Part shown: positions 9,106 through 41,507 of the stretch, piece by piece
Position numbering within the stretch: the stretch's first letter is position 1
Layout of the letters: every line of letters begins with the position of its first letter
Assembly: GCA_031290625.1 (NCBI GenBank)
Contig: JAITND010000007.1
Location: 1-44,911, forward strand
Source: Endomicrobium sp.
Lineage (GTDB): Bacteria > Elusimicrobiota > Endomicrobiia > Endomicrobiales > Endomicrobiaceae
Direction: 5' to 3'
DNA length: 44,911 nucleotides
The notes under the pieces: generated by a model
The model's input: only the letters and a program-made list of their open reading frames with translations
Told to the model about the DNA's origin: nothing
Databases searched by the model: none
Program-made: the position numbers and the translations under genes

Positions 9106-10491
9106 CTAAGTTTTCTTTTTTGTAATTTTGAAGGCGATATAAACCGCAAATACCCATATAGGGATAGCTATTACTTGCTTTGCCATTCCAATTTGAGAGA
9201 ATGTCATTGCCGTAAGAATAAACGCGATAAAAGCGAGCGTAATATAATTTGAATACGGATAGAACGGCGCTGGAAATAAAGTTTCTTTATTTTTACTTTT
9301 AAATTTCATATGGGATAAAGTTATAAGCGCCCAGTTTACAAGAATGCAAACAACCACAAAACTTAAAATTATTTTAAACGCTTTAAACCAGTTTGGAATA
9401 AAATAATTTAAAGGCGCAACTAAAAATGTTATTGCGCTTGAGACGAGAATTGCATTAAACGGTACGCCTCTCTTGTTTGTTTTTGCCAAAGCGCGAGGCG
9501 CGTTTTTCTGAAGAGCAAGACCGTAAAGCATGCGGCTGTTGCTGTAAATGCAGCTGTTGTATACGGACAAAGCGGCTGTAAGGACAATAAAGTTTAAAGT
9601 CCACGCCGCGTACTTAAAACCAATACGGTCAAAAATCATAACAAATGGACTCTCTAACGCGCTTAAGTCACTCCAGTGGTAAAGCGATAAAAGAACTACA
9701 AGCGAGCCGATGTAAAAAATTAAAACGCGGTAAACAACTTGGTTTATAGCTTTGGGAATAGTCTTTGTCGGGTTTTCTGTTTCTGCGGCAGTTATGCCTA
9801 TAAGTTCCAATCCGCCGAATGCGAATGTAATAATTGGCAAAGCCATTATAAGCCCAATAGCCCCGTGTGGGAAAAATCCGCTAAAAGCAGCGTCTCCTGC
9901 ATGGAGTCCGACGCAAGGAGCTTGCCATAAATTTTTAATTGTTGCGCCGACAACAAGACTTGGGTCAAAGAAAAGAATATATCCGCCCGCTAAAATCATT
10001 GCGCAAATGGCAAATATTTTTATTGAAGAAAACCAAAATTCCACCTCGCCGTAAGCTCTGACGGCTGTAAAGTTTACAATGTTTATAACTATAAAGAAAA
10101 ACAGCGCTGTTTTCCAAGTGGCGATATTAGGAAACCAATACTGCGCGTATGCGGCGACTGCAGTAAGTTCGGTTATTCCTGCAAGAGCGTATGCAAACCA
10201 ATAATTCCAGCCAACCAAAAAGCCTGGGAAATCTCCCCAATATTTGTAAGCGAAATAGCTTGAAGAACCGGCGGAAGGATCTTGCGCGTTCATTTCGCCC
10301 ATTTGTCGCATAATTAAAAATACTATTATGCCTGCGACTAAATATCCAAGAAGAACAGCTGGACCTGCAACAAAAATAGCGTTGCCTGCGCCTAAAAAGA
10401 GACCTGTGCCTACAGCTCCTCCAAGAGCTATAAACTGTATATGGCGGTTTGTAAGATTGCGTTTTAATTTGCTTTTTTCAGGGTTATGCAT
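9106..10491 (-). CDS. APC-family amino acid permease (tandem paralog 1)
   Basis: 461 aa, LKRNLTNRHIQFIALGGAVGTGLFLGAGNAI..., multi-TM. Confidence 0.9.
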   Translation of the reverse strand: MHNPEKSKLKRNLTNRHIQFIALGGAVGTGLFLGAGNAIFVAGPAVLLGYLVAGIIVFLIMRQMGEMNAQDPSAGSSSYFAYKYWGDFPGFLVGWNYWFAYALAGITELTAVAAYAQYWFPNIATWKTALFFFIVINIVNFTAVRAYGEVEFWFSSIKIFAICAMILAGGYILFFDPSLVVGATIKNLWQAPCVGLHAGDAAFSGFFPHGAIGLIMALPIITFAFGGLELIGITAAETENPTKTIPKAINQVVYRVLIFYIGSLVVLLSLYHWSDLSALESPFVMIFDRIGFKYAAWTLNFIVLTAALSVYNSCIYSNSRMLYGLALQKNAPRALAKTNKRGVPFNAILVSSAITFLVAPLNYFIPNWFKAFKIILSFVVVCILVNWALITLSHMKFKSKNKETLFPAPFYPYSNYITLAFIAFILTAMTFSQIGMAKQVIAIPIWVFAVYIAFKITKKKT

Positions 10492-10564
10492 ATTTTTAAA
10501 GTTCTTTCTCTAAGTTTATACTAAATTCATACGACATCCGCAAATATGGACGGCAAGAACTTGT

Positions 10565-10850
10565 TTAAAATTGCCAGATTGCGGCAATGCCATAGAGCGC
10601 AATACAAAATGAATGGACTTTCAACCATACGCAAGTTGCTCCAATGATATAAAGACAAAAGAACCTATGTAAAAAATCAAAATGCGACGCGCGCAACATG
10701 GTTGACAACTTTCGGGATAGTTCTTTTCGGATCCGAGACTTCCGCAACTGCGAAACCTATCGATTCTATACTGTCAAAGGCAAAGATTATAATAGGAAAT
10801 GCCATTAAAAATCCGATAAAACCGTGGGGAAAAATCTTTTAAAATAAGTG
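10565..10850 (-). pseudogene. Internal fragment of a fifth APC-family permease
   Basis: Reverse-strand reading FPHGFIGFLMAFPIIIFAFDSIESIGFAVAEVSDPKRTIPKVVNHV...ILIFYIGSFVLLSLYHWSNLR...SPF aligns across frames with the middle of the neighbouring permeases; no full ORF. Confidence 0.8.
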
Positions 10851-10905
10851 AATATTTTTCAGATCGTCCATGTCTTTTTCTCCTTCAAGTTTTGTAGGTC
10901 AGTTT

Positions 10906-12360
10906 TTACGACTGTTGCGGTTGGTTTAAATTTTTGTCTTTCCTTATTACAAGGCTATACCCTATATATACGACCAATATCCATAATGGCAAAGCTATAA
11001 CTTGCTTCGCCATTCCAAATGTCGGCACTGACATTGTAAACAGTATGAAAACTAAAAATACAAGAGTAAGGTAATTTGAAAAAGGATAAAAAGGAGATGG
11101 AAAAATAGGTTTGGTATTTTCAAGGTTCTTTTGTTTTCTAAACTTTAACTGCGATATTGATATGATAGCCCAGTTTGTAATAACGCATATAACTGAAAAA
11201 CTTATAACTATTTCAAAAGCTTTTATCCAATCAGGAACGAAATAGCTCAACGGAACCACAGAAAACGTTAAGGCTCCCGATACAAGAATTGACGGTACAG
11301 GGATGCCCCTCTTGTTTGTTTTTGTAAAAATTTTAGGAGCGTTTTTCTGCAAAGCAAGACCGTAAAGCATACGGCTGTTGCAGTAAATACAGCTATTGTA
11401 TACGGACAAAGCCGCCGTAAAAACTATAAAGTTTAAAATCCAAGCCACGTACTTAAACCCTATTTTGTCAAAAATAAGAACAAACGGGCTGTCTGACGGG
11501 CTTAGATTGCTCCAGTGATATAAAGACAAAAGTATAGCGAGAGATCCAACATAAAAAATCAAGATACGAAATACCACCTGATTTATAGCTTTGGGAATTA
11601 TGCTTTGAGGATTTTCTGTTTCTGCGGCTGTTATTCCCACAAGTTCAACGCCGTCAAAAGCAAAAATTATCATAGGAAACGTTAACATAAATCCTATAAA
11701 CCCGTGCGTGAAGAAACCTTTAAATACTGCGTTGCCTGCAAACATTCCGACCGTTGGAGCGTCCCATAAATTCTTTATAGTAGCGCCTGGGAGCAGCCCC
11801 GTATTAAAAAACAAGATGTATCCTCCCGCCAATATCATAACGCAGACAGCAATGATTTTTATTGAAGAAAACCAAAATTCCACCTCGCCGTACGCTTTTA
11901 CGGTTAAGAGATTTACGGCGTTTATAAGCAGAAAGAAAAATAATGTGGCTTTCCAAACGGCAATACCGGGAAACCAATATTGCATGTATCCGGCAACGGC
12001 GATAAGTTCAACTATGCCTACTAAAATGTAGTCAACCCAATAGTTCCAGCCTGCTAAAAACCCTGCAAATCTACCCCAATATTTGTCTGCAAAATAGCTT
12101 GAAGATCCAGCGGCAGGTTCTTGAGTGACCATTTCGCCAAGCTGTCTCATAACTAAAAATACTAAAAACCCTGCAAGAAGATACGCCAAGATAACTGAAG
12201 GTCCCGTTGAGAAAATTGCGCTTGCAGAGCCAAGGAAAAGACCTGTTCCCACGGCGCTTCCGAGAGCTATAAATTGAATATGACGGTTTTTAAGCTTACG
12301 TTTTAATCCGCCGTTTCCTTGAACCAACGTTGTATCTATACTTTGCGTTTCGGTATCCAT
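10906..12360 (-). CDS. APC-family amino acid permease (tandem paralog 2)
   Basis: 484 aa, LKRKLKNRHIQFIALGSAVGTGLFLGSASAIF..., multi-TM. Confidence 0.9.
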   Translation of the reverse strand: MDTETQSIDTTLVQGNGGLKRKLKNRHIQFIALGSAVGTGLFLGSASAIFSTGPSVILAYLLAGFLVFLVMRQLGEMVTQEPAAGSSSYFADKYWGRFAGFLAGWNYWVDYILVGIVELIAVAGYMQYWFPGIAVWKATLFFFLLINAVNLLTVKAYGEVEFWFSSIKIIAVCVMILAGGYILFFNTGLLPGATIKNLWDAPTVGMFAGNAVFKGFFTHGFIGFMLTFPMIIFAFDGVELVGITAAETENPQSIIPKAINQVVFRILIFYVGSLAILLSLYHWSNLSPSDSPFVLIFDKIGFKYVAWILNFIVFTAALSVYNSCIYCNSRMLYGLALQKNAPKIFTKTNKRGIPVPSILVSGALTFSVVPLSYFVPDWIKAFEIVISFSVICVITNWAIISISQLKFRKQKNLENTKPIFPSPFYPFSNYLTLVFLVFILFTMSVPTFGMAKQVIALPLWILVVYIGYSLVIRKDKNLNQPQQS

Positions 12361-12373
12361 AGGTAATTCCTTT

Positions 12374-13765
12374 TTATTTATTTTTGTTGAGACGTAATTT
12401 ATATCCCAAAAACACTATTAAGAGCCATACTGGTATTGCTATAACCTGTTTTGCCATTCCAATCTGTGGCAAAAACATGCCCGCAAGTATAAACGCTACG
12501 GCAATTAAAACAATATAATTAGAATAAGGATAAAACAAAGACGGAAATGTTGTCTTTCTGTTTTCAAGGTTCATTTGTTTTTTAAACTTTAAATGAGTTA
12601 TGGCTATAATGCACCAGTAAGTTACTATGCATATAACCGAGAAATTCATAATTACGTCAAACGCTTCAAAACAGTTTGGCATAAAGTAATTTAGAGGAAC
12701 AACCAAAAACGTGAGCAAACTTGTAAAAAGAACGCTGGCTATAGGAATGCCTTTTTTTGTTGTTTTTGCAAAAACTTGCGGAGCGTTTTTCTGCAAAGCA
12801 AGACCGTAAAGCATGCGGCTATTGCCGTAAATGCAACTGTTATATACGGACACCGCTGCTGTTAGAATAATAAAATTTAAAACCCAAGCCGCATAGTTAA
12901 AGCCGATTTTTTCAAAAATCATAACGAAAGGGCTTTCAGAAATGCTTAAGTTGCTCCAATGATACAAGGACAAAAGCACTACCAATGAACCAATATAAAA
13001 AATCAAGATGCGGAAAACAACCTGATTAGTGGCTTTAGGAATGTTTTTCTTAGGATCCGCGGTTTCTGCAGCTGTCATTCCTATTGTATCAAGTCCGTCA
13101 AAAGCAAAAATTATAGTTGGAAAAGCCGCCATAAGTCCTATAAACCCGTGAGGGAAAAATCCGCTAAAGGAAGCGTCTCCTGTGTGTATGCCGACGGTTG
13201 CAGTTTGCCATAAATTCTTAAGCGTCGCTCCGGGAACTAAGCTTGTGTCAAAGAGTAAAATATATGCTCCGGCAAAAATCATCGCGCATATAGCGGCTAT
13301 CTTTACAATTGAAAAAAGAAATTCGGCTTCGCCATAAGCTTTTACAGTATACAGATTAACTATAGTTATTATTACAAAGAAAAACAACGATGTTTTCCAA
13401 GTGGGAATATTGGGAAACCAGTACTGCGTGTACGCCGCGACTGCCGTTAATTCCGCAATACTTATAAGTATATACAAAATTGAGTGGTTCCACCCAGCCA
13501 AAAATCCGGAAAAAGAGTCCCAATACTTATAAGCGAAATAGCTGTAAGACCCCGGAGCAGTTTCTTCAGTGTTCATTTTGTTAAGCTGGCGAACCATAAA
13601 AAATACTAAAAAACCAGCTATCAAATAACCTAAAAGAACAGACGGACCTGCTGCAAAAATAGCGCTGCCGGCTCCTAAAAATAAGCCTGTTCCTATACTT
13701 GCGCCAAGGGCTATAAATTGAATGTGGCGGTTTGTAAGTTTACGTTTAAGTTTGTTTTGTCGCAC
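12374..13765 (-). CDS. APC-family amino acid permease (tandem paralog 3)
   Basis: Track ORF extends to 13921, but the extra N-terminus is antisense-independent read-through of the upstream paralog's 3' end; GTG at 13765 (VRQNKLKRKLTNRHIQFIALG) preceded by AAGGAT fits better. Confidence 0.85.
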   Translation of the reverse strand: MRQNKLKRKLTNRHIQFIALGASIGTGLFLGAGSAIFAAGPSVLLGYLIAGFLVFFMVRQLNKMNTEETAPGSYSYFAYKYWDSFSGFLAGWNHSILYILISIAELTAVAAYTQYWFPNIPTWKTSLFFFVIITIVNLYTVKAYGEAEFLFSIVKIAAICAMIFAGAYILLFDTSLVPGATLKNLWQTATVGIHTGDASFSGFFPHGFIGLMAAFPTIIFAFDGLDTIGMTAAETADPKKNIPKATNQVVFRILIFYIGSLVVLLSLYHWSNLSISESPFVMIFEKIGFNYAAWVLNFIILTAAVSVYNSCIYGNSRMLYGLALQKNAPQVFAKTTKKGIPIASVLFTSLLTFLVVPLNYFMPNCFEAFDVIMNFSVICIVTYWCIIAITHLKFKKQMNLENRKTTFPSLFYPYSNYIVLIAVAFILAGMFLPQIGMAKQVIAIPVWLLIVFLGYKLRLNKNK

Positions 13766-13823
13766 TTTATAATCCTTATAATACAACAAACAAACCTTGC
13801 GCGCTTTCCTTAACAAAATTAAG

Positions 13824-15233
13824 TTAGTTTGTCGTATATGCTTTTTTTCTTGATATTTTATATCCGATATAAACAGCCAGCAGCCAAATAGGCGCAGCAG
13901 CAACTTGTTTAGCCATTCCAAGCGGTGGCACTGTCATCGCCACCATGATAAGAAAATAAAATATCATCGTAATATAATTAGAATACGGATAAAAAGGAGA
14001 AGGGAACAACGTCGTATAGTTTTCCGCTTTTTTTTGTTTTTTAAACTTTAAATGCGATATTGTTATCATCCACCAATTAACAATCGCACACACTACCACA
14101 AAGCTCATTATTATTTGGAAGGCGTTGAACCAATTAGGAATAAAATAGTTTAACGGTACCACCAAAAACGTAAATAAACTTGAAAGTAAAAGCGATGCCG
14201 TAGGAACGCCTCTTTTGTTTGTTTTTGTAAAAACTTGCAGAGCGTTATTTTGTAAAGCAAGACCGTAAAGCATACGGCTGTTGCTGTAAATGCAGCTGTT
14301 GTATACAGACAAAGCCGCCGTCAAAATAATGAAGTTTAAAGTCCAAGCGGCGTATTTAAAGCCTATCTTATCAAAAATCATTACAAATGGGCTATCAGTA
14401 ATTTTTAGGTTGCTCCAATGGTACAAAGACAAAAGAACGACCAAAGAGCCTATATAAAAAACCAATATGCGAAACACCACTTGATTTACGGCTTTAGGGA
14501 TTGTAACCTTAGGATTTTCTGTTTCTGCGGCAGTTATGCCTACAAGTTCTAGTCCTCCGAAAGAGAAAGTTATTATAGGCACGGCCATTATAAACCCTAT
14601 AAACCCATGAGAAAAAAATCCGCTAAAGGAAACATCTCCCGCGTGTACGCCGACGGTCGCTGCTTGCCATAAATTTTTAAACGTTGCGCCAATAACTAAA
14701 CTTGGGTCAAAAAACAAAATGTATCCGCCTGCCAAAATCATTGCGCAAATGGCTGTTATTTTTACTATTGAAAACGCAAACTCCATCTCGCCGTAAATTT
14801 TTACCGCCGCAACGTTTACAGCGCTTATAAGGGTAAAAAAGAACAAAGCGGTTTTCCATGTGTCAAGTCCCGGAAACCAATACTGCGCATACGCGGCGAC
14901 GGCTGTAAGCTCTGCTATGCCTATCATAACATACAGTATCCAGTAGTTCCAGCCAGCCAAAAAGCCGGGGAAATCTCCCCAATATTTGTAAGCAAAATAG
15001 CTAAAGGATCCTGCCATAGGTTCTTCAGTGTCCATCTCGCCAAGTTGTCTCATAATGAAGAATGCCATAATCCCGGAAATTAAATAGCCCAATAGGACGG
15101 CCGGACCTGCTGCAAAAATAGCGCTTCCCGCGCCCAAAAAAAGCCCGGTGCCTATTGCTCCGCCTAAAGCTATAAACTGTATGTGCCGGTTTGAAAGGTT
15201 GCGCTTTAAACTGCTTTCCTGAAATTGACCCAT
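13824..15233 (-). CDS. APC-family amino acid permease (tandem paralog 4)
   Basis: 469 aa, MGQFQESSLKRNLSNRHIQFIALGGAIGTGLFLGAGSAIF... Confidence 0.9.
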   Translation of the reverse strand: MGQFQESSLKRNLSNRHIQFIALGGAIGTGLFLGAGSAIFAAGPAVLLGYLISGIMAFFIMRQLGEMDTEEPMAGSFSYFAYKYWGDFPGFLAGWNYWILYVMIGIAELTAVAAYAQYWFPGLDTWKTALFFFTLISAVNVAAVKIYGEMEFAFSIVKITAICAMILAGGYILFFDPSLVIGATFKNLWQAATVGVHAGDVSFSGFFSHGFIGFIMAVPIITFSFGGLELVGITAAETENPKVTIPKAVNQVVFRILVFYIGSLVVLLSLYHWSNLKITDSPFVMIFDKIGFKYAAWTLNFIILTAALSVYNSCIYSNSRMLYGLALQNNALQVFTKTNKRGVPTASLLLSSLFTFLVVPLNYFIPNWFNAFQIIMSFVVVCAIVNWWMITISHLKFKKQKKAENYTTLFPSPFYPYSNYITMIFYFLIMVAMTVPPLGMAKQVAAAPIWLLAVYIGYKISRKKAYTTN

Positions 15234-15690: not shown

Positions 15691-16041
15691 ATGTTGAAGA
15701 AATTAGCAAGCATGTTGTTAGCGTTGTTGGTTTCAGTAAGCGGTAGAACAGAGTCGCAGGAGCAGTATCTTAGTGAAGATGAGATGAATGTTTTTGAAAA
15801 AATAAAGTTAATATTGCAAAGAAAGGGCAAAGCGGATGGAGGGACTTGCAAGGATACTGAGACGGCTTGGGAAAGATTTAAAAGAAAAGCGGATGAGTCA
15901 GCAGAGGCGCTTGTTCTTGTTCTGATCGCAAGTATGGCGATTATAGGTAAGCTTGTCCCCGAGTCCCAGCACACCCTAGTGTTCATATTATGGCTCATAG
16001 CTGGGCTGACGGTGTTTTGGGAAGGAACAAAGAGCGCTTAG
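15691..16041 (+). CDS. Small hypothetical protein with N-terminal hydrophobic leader and C-terminal two-TM segment
   Basis: 116 aa MLKKLASMLLALLVSVSG...ALVLVLIASMAIIGKLVPESQHTLVFILWLIAGLTVFWEG; GAAGAGG upstream of ATG. Confidence 0.6.
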   Translation: MLKKLASMLLALLVSVSGRTESQEQYLSEDEMNVFEKIKLILQRKGKADGGTCKDTETAWERFKRKADESAEALVLVLIASMAIIGKLVPESQHTLVFILWLIAGLTVFWEGTKSA

Positions 16042-36758: not shown

Positions 36759-36990
36759 TTTAAATTATTATGGGAAAATATATATTATATAAAGAGAAAT
36801 CTTTACGTAATAGGCGGTGTGGAAACAAATAATTTTGAGGTCCAAAAATAGGATGTTTTTGGCGGAAAGCGGTGGAAGTTTTGCCTAAAGAAACGGTAAA
36901 ATTATGCAATATATCGCGATTACGAAAGAGATTTTAAAGGAAACTATGCTATAGGCATTGCTGTGGATGCGGATAAAGGATTATATCATC

Positions 36991-38259
36991 ATGAAAAAGA
37001 CTCTTTGTTTTCCAAACATGAAAAAACTAGTTAGTTTGTTGTTAGTGGGAATGTTATTGTTTTCGTCAGTTAAACCGGCTGGCGCTTTGACTTGGGACGA
37101 GCTGAATAGGCGCACCAATAACGTTCCTAATGAGTTCCTAGTTAAGTTCATAATAGGGACTTTAATATCGGGTTTGCTTCATAAATATTGGTTCGCATTA
37201 ACCTCACTTTCTAAGACTATAAAAAGGAGAAGGTCGCCAATATCTAGCGAAGATATTCTTAAACATTTTGATGAAAGGGTTACTGGGCAAGCAAAAACAA
37301 AAAGAACTTTGGCTATAGCCGGGTATAATCATTATAAAAGAGTCTTAGATGGAGTTAAATTTCAGAGAGCTAATCTTTTAATTCTTGGACCTACTGGCTG
37401 TGGGAAAACTTTTTTAGCTCAGACTATGGCAAATCTTTTAAACTTACCTTTTGTGATTGCAGATTCTAAGGATATTGATTCAGCGAATAATAATAGGAAT
37501 CCGATTGATACTATTTTTTCTAGACTTTTAGACGCATCCCATTATGACGTTAAACTTGCTGAGAAAGGTATTGTTTTTTTGGATGAGATAGATAAAATAA
37601 AAGATACCAGATTAACGTCTTCTGTGGAAGCGCAGAAGCGGCTTTTAAAAATTTTAGAAGGAACTAAATTTACGACCGAGCATGTCTATTACGACGTAAT
37701 CAACGGTCGTAATCAACGCGAAAGTTTAACAATAGACACGTCAAATATTCTCTTCGTATGCAGTGGAGCTTTTGTTGGTCTTGAGGATATAATAAAGCAA
37801 AGAACAGATAATGTTAATGCGACTCTTTCCGAAGTTAACGATAAGGATCTTATAGAGTTCGGATTTATTCCTGAATTCGTTGGAAGGATTCCTATTGTTT
37901 CAGTTATGGATCCTCTTAACACTTCCGATCTCCTTAGTATATTAAGTGAATCTAAAAACTGTTTGGTAAAACAGTACAAAGCGAGATGCGCTTCTGAGAA
38001 TGTAGAATTGGAATTTGAGAAAGAAGCTTTGGAGAAGATAGCTGAAAAAGCTGTCAAAAAACAGTTAGGAGCAAGAGGTTTAGTATCCGTACTGGAAGAT
38101 CTTATGGAAGATGTATTTTATAAAATCACAACCAATCGCTTAGTAAGAAAATGTATTATTACAGCTGAAAGCGTTGAGAAAGGAGAAAGTCCGATGTTTG
38201 AGTATGCCTCTCCCCCTCCGCCAAGTAAAAGCTTTTGGCAAAGACTATTTAGAACCTGA
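36991..38259 (+). CDS. Membrane-anchored ClpX-derived AAA+ ATPase lacking ZBD, GYVG, RKH and IGF loops
   Basis: ClpX-like backbone: DERVTGQAKTKRTLAIAGYNHYKR, LLILGPTGCGKTFLAQTMANLLNLPFVIAD, AEKGIVFLDEIDKI, IDTSNILFVCSGAFVGLEDII, DLIEFGFIPEFVGRIPIV, LVKQYKARCASENVELEFEKEALEKIAEKA, GARGL; N-terminus MKKLVSLLLVGMLLFSSVKPAGA and FLVKFIIGTLISGLLHKYWFAL are hydrophobic. AAGGA upstream of ATG 36991. Confidence 0.9.
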   Translation: MKKTLCFPNMKKLVSLLLVGMLLFSSVKPAGALTWDELNRRTNNVPNEFLVKFIIGTLISGLLHKYWFALTSLSKTIKRRRSPISSEDILKHFDERVTGQAKTKRTLAIAGYNHYKRVLDGVKFQRANLLILGPTGCGKTFLAQTMANLLNLPFVIADSKDIDSANNNRNPIDTIFSRLLDASHYDVKLAEKGIVFLDEIDKIKDTRLTSSVEAQKRLLKILEGTKFTTEHVYYDVINGRNQRESLTIDTSNILFVCSGAFVGLEDIIKQRTDNVNATLSEVNDKDLIEFGFIPEFVGRIPIVSVMDPLNTSDLLSILSESKNCLVKQYKARCASENVELEFEKEALEKIAEKAVKKQLGARGLVSVLEDLMEDVFYKITTNRLVRKCIITAESVEKGESPMFEYASPPPPSKSFWQRLFRT

Positions 38260-38632
38260 GTTTATCGTATATAGGGAAAAAAGGTATTTAAGAGTGAACA
38301 AACTCAAAAAGTGGAATCAAAGAATAAACTCAGGAGGGTATCTAGTACCTGAGATAAAGGAATCTAACCTAGAGGTATAACAGAGATGAGAATATAATTT
38401 TTGTCAAAAAGACATATCAGAAAAAAGAAATAAAAGTTAACAAACAACTTTAAGATTGGATAGTATGCGGTTTTTGACGTAGACGTTGCAGTTGAAAATT
38501 CTATAGCTGAATGCTGAAAAAAGATTTGGTCTATGTCTCTTGAGAGAGCGTACGCTTTTGATTTTGAACAGTATAAACTCGGTGGAACAATTCAAATTTA
38601 TATCGCTCTAAAGACGACAAAGGCGGGAAGCG

Positions 38633-40189: not shown

Positions 40190-41507
40190 ATGAGAAAAAT
40201 TAGCAGAGGTTTTGTTTATTTTTTCGGAGCTTTAGGCGGACTTCTTTTTGGATATGACACGGGCGTTATATCGGGAGCGATTCTGTTCATCAAAAACGAT
40301 ATGTCGTTAAGCTCTATTGCTCAAGGCGTTGTGGTAAGCGCAATACTGCTTGGAGCGCCATAGTTGGCGCTGCTGTAATAGGGTCGTTTTCGGACAAATA
40401 CGGACATAGAAAAATGGTATTGTTGTTTGCTGTAATCTTTGCAGTAGGCGCAATCTTTTCCACTCTTTCTGGCAATGCCGTAATGTTAACAATTTCAAGA
40501 ATAATACTAGGGACTGCCGTTGGCGGTGCTTCTGCGTTGGTTCCTTTGTATTTGGCAGAAATGTCGCCTGCCAAGTATAGAGGATCTCTTTCCACTTTAA
40601 ATCAACTAATGATTACAATAGGTATTTTGTCTGCATATATGGTGTATAATGCTTGGCTTTGCAGCTATTCCCGCCGCGCTATTGTTTATAGGTGCTTTGT
40701 ATTTGCCGGAAAGCCCCAGATGGCTTATAAGCAAAGGTTTTGAAGATAAAGCTGTTGAGATTTTAAGAGCTGTTAGGATTAAAGCAGCGCCAAAAGAAAT
40801 AGACGAAGAAATATTTGAAATTAAAGAAGCAAATGTTAAAGAAAGCGGTGTGTTTAAAGATTTAATGCAAAAGCGGATGAGACCTGTATTGGTAATAGGT
40901 ATAGGGCTTGCCGTGTTTCATCCAGTTTATAGGGATAAATACTGTTATTTATTATGCCCCTACAATTTTTTCAGATATTGGACTTGGCGATATTTCTGCA
41001 ATTTTAAGCACCGTTGGAATAGGCGTATTAAATGTTTTGATTACTATACTTGCTTTATTTATTATGGACAAAATTGACAGAAAGAAAATGCTTATTATGG
41101 GAAGTTCAGTCATGGCGGCGTCTTTGATTTTGTTGTGCATCGTTCGCAGTTTCCTGTTGCAAGCGGCAATATTTTGGGATATATTACGTTGGCTTTTTTG
41201 TGCGCGTACATATTTTTCTTTGCCCTTACCTGTGGACCCGTTATGTGGATAATGATAGGCGAAGTCTTCCCTTTCAAGGCGAGAGGTTTGTCGCAGGCGT
41301 TAGTAGTGTTGCCAACTGGACGGCAAATCTGGGTCGCTTTAGTATTTCCATTTTTCTTTGAGAAGTTGGGCAATGCATTATTTCTGTTTTTTGCGATTAT
41401 GGCGATATTTGTCAATATTCTTCATCAAATATAAGGTTTTTGAAACAAGAGGAAAGTCCCTTGAGTCTATAGAAATGACGCTATACAATAAGTCAAGAAA
41501 TATGTAG
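40190..41507 (+). pseudogene. Sugar-porter-family MFS transporter, multiply frameshifted
   Basis: Across frames: [150 protein letters not shown]. Confidence 0.93.

Follow-up and report, generated by a model that had tools for sequence, protein, structure and literature searches.

A leader-bearing ClpX-type AAA+ protein from Endomicrobium with complete ATP-site motifs and without the zinc domain and the channel and docking loops

Introduction

Few molecular machines of bacteria are as conserved as ClpX. Structural work on this protein has established that the tyrosine of pore-1 grips and pulls the substrate, that pore-2 and the RKH loop touch it, and that the IGF loop docks ClpP (PMC7112952). 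Yeast mitochondrial ClpX (Mcx1) operates in an organism without ClpP, and its client is unfolded or activated and not degraded (PMC8361296, PMC7077987). TorsinA, a AAA+ protein related to Clp/HSP100, carries a signal sequence and a hydrophobic segment and is devoid of aromatic pore loops; torsins have no arginine finger and require cofactors (PMC5425593).

Here we describe an open reading frame that shares features with each of these proteins. It is located in a stretch of 44,911 nucleotides from an Endomicrobium sp., referred to as the window, which is contig 52 of an assembly of 1.18 Mb in 55 contigs, estimated to be 89% complete. The bacterium is probably a symbiont, as judged by its small genome and its gene content. 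The window protein resembles canonical bacterial ClpX in its AAA+ core, with Walker A and B, arginine finger, sensor 2 and small domain, and falls inside the clpX tree of the genus, but it lacks the zinc domain and the GYVG, RDVSGEG, RKH and IGF elements, possesses a leader and scores under the family cut-off. Mcx1, which we compare by description and not by sequence, is a ClpX-type protein that acts without ClpP, as is predicted for the window protein; it is, however, a mitochondrial unfoldase that still pulls its client, whereas the window protein has lost the channel grip and belongs to a cell that contains ClpP. With TorsinA it has in common a leader with a hydrophobic segment and the absence of aromatic pore loops, but it retains an arginine finger (PEFVGR), and the origin of torsins is separate from ClpX. 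In FtsH and other membrane AAA+ proteases, too, N-terminal hydrophobic segments precede the AAA+ domain; in contrast, the AAA+ domain of the window protein is of the ClpX type, and Pfam and NCBIfam scans revealed no zinc metalloprotease domain behind it. A ClpX paralogue of this kind did not turn up in a literature search, whose sole match for Endomicrobium and ClpX was incidental.

Results and Discussion

ATPase core and family identity

The frame is uninterrupted on the forward strand from an ATG at 36991 to a stop codon ending at 38259 and encodes 422 amino acids. The NCBIfam ClpX profile PRK05342 matches residues 82-406 with 322.7 bits and TIGR00382 gives 296.9 bits, so that the curated cut-offs of 359 and 370.75 are not reached. 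The HslU profile scores 133.9 bits against a cut-off of 362.45. Its best relatives of solved structure are ClpX chains (E about 1e-70), and no family match was obtained for residues 1-81 in the Pfam and NCBIfam scans. Aligned with 35 canonical ClpX sequences from its phylum, the protein shows Walker A (GPTGCGKT, residues 133-140, 37387-37410), Walker B (IVFLDE, residues 194-199, 37570-37587), the arginine-finger motif (PEFVGR, residues 294-299, 37870-37887) and sensor 2 (GARGL, residues 360-364, 38068-38082), all on the forward strand. The initial annotation had described a core close to ClpX from GPTGCGKT, GIVFLDEIDKI, IPEFVGRIP and GARGL, and all four were found. Judged by its sequence, the window protein descends from ClpX. 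A single-sequence AlphaFold2 model was uninformative (pLDDT 35.7) and was left out of the evidence.

Canonical clpX and a second leader-bearing paralogue

The same genome contains a canonical clpX (C27:17493-18740) between clpP and lon and downstream of tig, in the order tig-clpP-clpX-lon; the separate clpX and clpP for which the initial annotation had proposed a search are therefore both present. This coexistence would allow the window protein to act as a modified subunit, which joins canonical ClpX rings, recruits a fraction of these to the membrane and reduces their ClpP binding, and the residues of the ATP site and arginine finger, which meet at ClpX subunit interfaces, are retained. The core is, however, only about 48-49% identical to that of the canonical ClpX of this genome, and we regard such mixed rings as very improbable. 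In some members of the genus the canonical clpX is a pseudogene (L086, G091:C6:40948-41877; L084, G145:C26:5700-6900); in G145 it lies within an otherwise preserved tig-clpP-lon neighbourhood, where the clpP frame is also shortened.

A second leader-bearing ClpX paralogue is encoded on the minus strand of contig C8 (133-1431). The two leader-bearing products share 63% identity, and their DNA is 89% identical in the leader block (36975-37086) and 79% in the core, while the linker (residues about 33-80) is unalignable. Where the contig stops, the 3′ end of the C8 copy (L008:1-140) merges into a UvrD-like helicase frame that is truncated (IDEFQDLSGYDLDLLDVLF), and the last residues of this copy are therefore not homologous with the window copy. 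In the phylogenetic tree the two copies are joined with 100/100 support and are both placed inside the clpX sequences of the genus (support 100/99); the stem of the pair is long, and the tree singles out no one clpX as its parent. We envisage that a clpX duplicate confined to this lineage was stripped of its N-terminal zinc domain and acquired a signal-like leader, and that this gene would then have duplicated once more and relocated within the genome.

Loss of the zinc domain and of the channel and docking loops

In the alignment the C4 zinc-binding domain is missing, and the leader and linker stand in its place. At the pore-1 position, IDSANNNRNPIDTI replaces the canonical segment (residues 162-175, 37474-37515); the longer pore-1 segment of canonical ClpX reads KDIDSANNNRNPIDTIFSRL in the window protein, and the aromatic GYVG is gone. 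The canonical pore-2 segment SITRDVSGEGVQQ has shrunk to TRLTSSVEAQK with the loss of RDVSGEG (residues about 202-216, 37594-37638), a change that adds to the altered elements listed by the initial annotation. The RKH-loop position is rewritten (residues about 226-245, 37666-37725), and the IGF-type ClpP-docking loop is deleted at the junction R271/T272 (37801-37806), where a net 18 residues surrounding LGF, the IGF equivalent of the canonical ClpX of the same genome, have disappeared. Across the zinc domain and loops, 40 columns are invariant in ClpX and the window protein keeps 3 of them, compared to 61 of 73 such columns elsewhere in the core. A replaced zinc domain, altered functional loops and an absent IGF loop had been noticed in the initial annotation, and the alignment agrees on each.

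The C8 copy has lost the same loops with other replacements, for example ILYGGDSIENI opposite IDSANNNRNPIDTI, and its ATP motifs are intact as well. Loop loss is thus a trait of a small family and not the damage of a single copy, a possibility that the initial annotation had raised against its own interpretation. Columns kept in both paralogues amount to 54/73 outside the loops and 1/40 in the zinc domain and loops (Fisher P 9e-15). Two very small, highly reduced genomes of the genus (G151 and G159; L079, L080) encode ClpX proteins without the zinc domain that keep GYVG, RKH and IGF-type loops, so loss of the zinc domain alone does not cause the loop losses.

Because the ATP site, arginine finger and sensor 2 are complete, the product most likely still assembles into a complete or partial ring that hydrolyses ATP. 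Given what the loops do in ClpX, docking to ClpP would not be expected with the IGF loop gone, and the usual ClpX adaptors and tags would presumably not be used since both the zinc domain and the RKH loop are lost. Processive threading of substrates, for which the aromatic grip of pore-1 and the pore-2 loop are missing, is probably no longer performed. Our preferred reading, to which we give slightly less than an even chance, is a lineage-specific, rapidly evolving and ClpP-independent remodeller or scaffold at the membrane, driven in a torsin-like manner by conformational change of the ring. It is supported by the combination of leader, intact ATP motifs and loss of the same loops in both paralogues, by the concentration of lost columns in the zinc domain and loops and by the separate canonical clpX and clpP. 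The more specific proposal of a bacterial counterpart of torsins, that is, a ClpX-derived, leader-targeted AAA+ ATPase without ClpP or threading whose role at the membrane depends on assembly of the ring or a change in its conformation while its loops diversify between the two copies, appears rather unlikely.

Leader and membrane topology

The signal-like leader (residues 1-32, MKKTLCFPNMKKLVSLLLVGMLLFSSVKPAGA, 36991-37086, forward strand) has lysines, a hydrophobic core (KD 1.75) and an A-G-A end. It is the most similar block of the two paralogues, with 88% identical residues and a dN/dS of 0.36, the latter from few sites, and this similarity speaks in favor of the remodeller. A second hydrophobic stretch followed by KTIKRRR (residues 49-81, 37135-37233, forward strand) is marginal, its best 19-residue window reaching KD 1.47, and the unalignable linker of the C8 copy peaks at KD 0.32 and has no second hydrophobic helix. 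Of the membrane hairpin predicted by the initial annotation, the leader is upheld and shared with the C8 copy, but the second helix is not a conserved trait. At most one copy would therefore form a hairpin that leaves the AAA+ domain inside, and for the window copy this is plausible. By the same token, the loss of docking and gripping loops behind the membrane-tethered, ClpP-independent remodeller proposed by the initial annotation is upheld, but its anchor is only partly backed.

The leader may direct the protein to, or through, the inner membrane, and in the window copy the second helix and KTIKRRR would keep the ATPase in the cytoplasm, the site of ATP. If the leader were instead a cleaved signal peptide, the AAA+ domain could act beyond the inner membrane, either in the periplasm or, should the symbiont live inside host cells, on their side, which provides ATP. 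The lysines, hydrophobic core and A-G-A end suit such an exported protein, as does the lack of a further hydrophobic helix in the C8 copy; but ATP is not expected in the periplasm, the second hydrophobic stretch and KTIKRRR of the window copy point the other way, and an export route was not identified, which leaves export improbable. Two small proteins with a leader and a membrane helix (window 15691-16041 and L054:519-857) have in common the motif C[KE]DTET[AT]W[EQ]R[FV]KRKA; the one in the window adjoins Tad-pilus-like genes.

Distribution and insertion site

Intact leader-type relatives were not found in 42 other genomes of the genus, many of them incomplete, nor among the matches listed at E up to 1e-30 from 296 genomes of the phylum. 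One scan of viral contigs found no relative, and a scan of genome contigs returned two distant relatives only, one of them HslU-like. A putative third copy on contig C10 (VYNHYRK...) was rejected, as its hmmsearch E was 2 and the similarity extended over a hairpin-like inverted repeat; ClpX-like fragments in G145 (C26), G091 (C6) and G073 (C10) are closer to canonical clpX and were rejected as leader types. A defence-system or phage origin was likewise dismissed, with PADLOC and PHROGs matches being generic AAA+ or weak except for phrog_4339, a family of unknown function that matches with 221.7 bits; the phage and plasmid matches listed all start no earlier than residue 70, and none exceeds 44% identity.

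The closest sister genome, G073, differs from the window genome by a dS of 0.13 in canonical clpX. At the window locus it has the same neighbours side by side, and no gene separates them. In the alignment the two flanks share 8 bases, TATATCGC, which occur twice in the window (36910-36917 and 38599-38606) and once at the empty site (G073:C8:34696). This arrangement looks like a target-site duplication around a recent insertion of 1,689 bp (36918-38606). The 1.69-kb insert contains no transposase and no evident inverted repeats, its flanks have no other convincing copies in the genome, and no promoter is evident in the short inserted stretch upstream of the frame. At the locus that corresponds to the C8 paralogue, the G073 sequence still matches over about 470 bp of upstream DNA and ATGAAAAAGAC before it diverges, and on its contig C22 (L088, near 3270) a relic comprises upstream DNA and about 19 leader codons that are not followed by any ClpX part. 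Because of this remnant and this relic, the leader gene was probably present before the two species separated and was lost in G073. The lack of an intact copy in G073, together with a second helix not common to the C8 copy and the missing promoter, weakens the remodeller reading.

Selection on the two copies

Between the window and C8 copies the NG86 dN/dS of the core is 0.87 (bootstrap 0.62-1.29). At comparable divergence, canonical clpX yields 0.24 between the window genome and G073, a significant difference from the copies (Fisher P 1.6e-5), and two flanking genes 0.21 and 0.26. Outside the loops the nonsynonymous and synonymous rates of the copies do not differ significantly, and since the paralogue split ClpX-invariant positions were not significantly better conserved (59/73) than variable ones (138/192; P 0.16), which together with the ratio of 0.87 also weakens the remodeller. 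On the other hand, both frames are whole and changed in length in-frame only, and a neutral simulation with the same number of substitutions, a simple model with uniform sites and an assumed mutation bias, produced a mean of 7.2 stops in the two copies and zero stops in 0.1% of runs, which supports it. The initial annotation had deduced selection from the intact frame and had named a dN/dS near 1 or disruption in sister strains as signs of a pseudogene. The stop-free pair (P about 0.001) lends weight to its deduction, but the ratio of 0.87 and the want of an intact counterpart in G073, which is empty at the window locus and diverged at the C8 locus, do not. A fair reading is that selection still demands a complete protein with its ATP site preserved, though the constraint is weak or shifts.

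These data bear most directly on a strong rival, relaxed evolution, according to which the paralogues are transitional, dispensable, nearly unconstrained and heading to loss, with the loop losses as decay of unneeded functions. The elevated dN/dS relative to canonical clpX, the empty or broken sites in G073 and the decay of canonical clpX itself in some relatives fit this explanation; the whole frames with only in-frame length changes (improbable under the simple neutral model), the intact ATP motifs of both copies and the clustering of changes in the zinc domain and channel loops do not. There is a serious chance that the window gene is a transient duplicate, and we consider relaxation quite possible, if clearly short of an even chance. 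The pair probably represents either a novel membrane-associated device powered by ATP or a set of ClpX duplicates on the way to loss.

In both copies the substrate- and protease-facing parts of ClpX are lost and all ATP-site motifs are kept, in a lineage whose other members have shrinking genomes. If functional, the pair would present a ClpX-type ring whose ATP hydrolysis is uncoupled from both threading and proteolysis, and would illustrate a route from an unfoldase to a membrane device. If not, it would clearly exemplify the duplicate of a housekeeping AAA+ gene that has gained a leader and has not yet been lost. Elsewhere in the window, four successive amino-acid-permease-like ORFs occupy the minus strand at 9106-15233, and a sugar-transporter-like gene at 40414-41434 is split into several frames.
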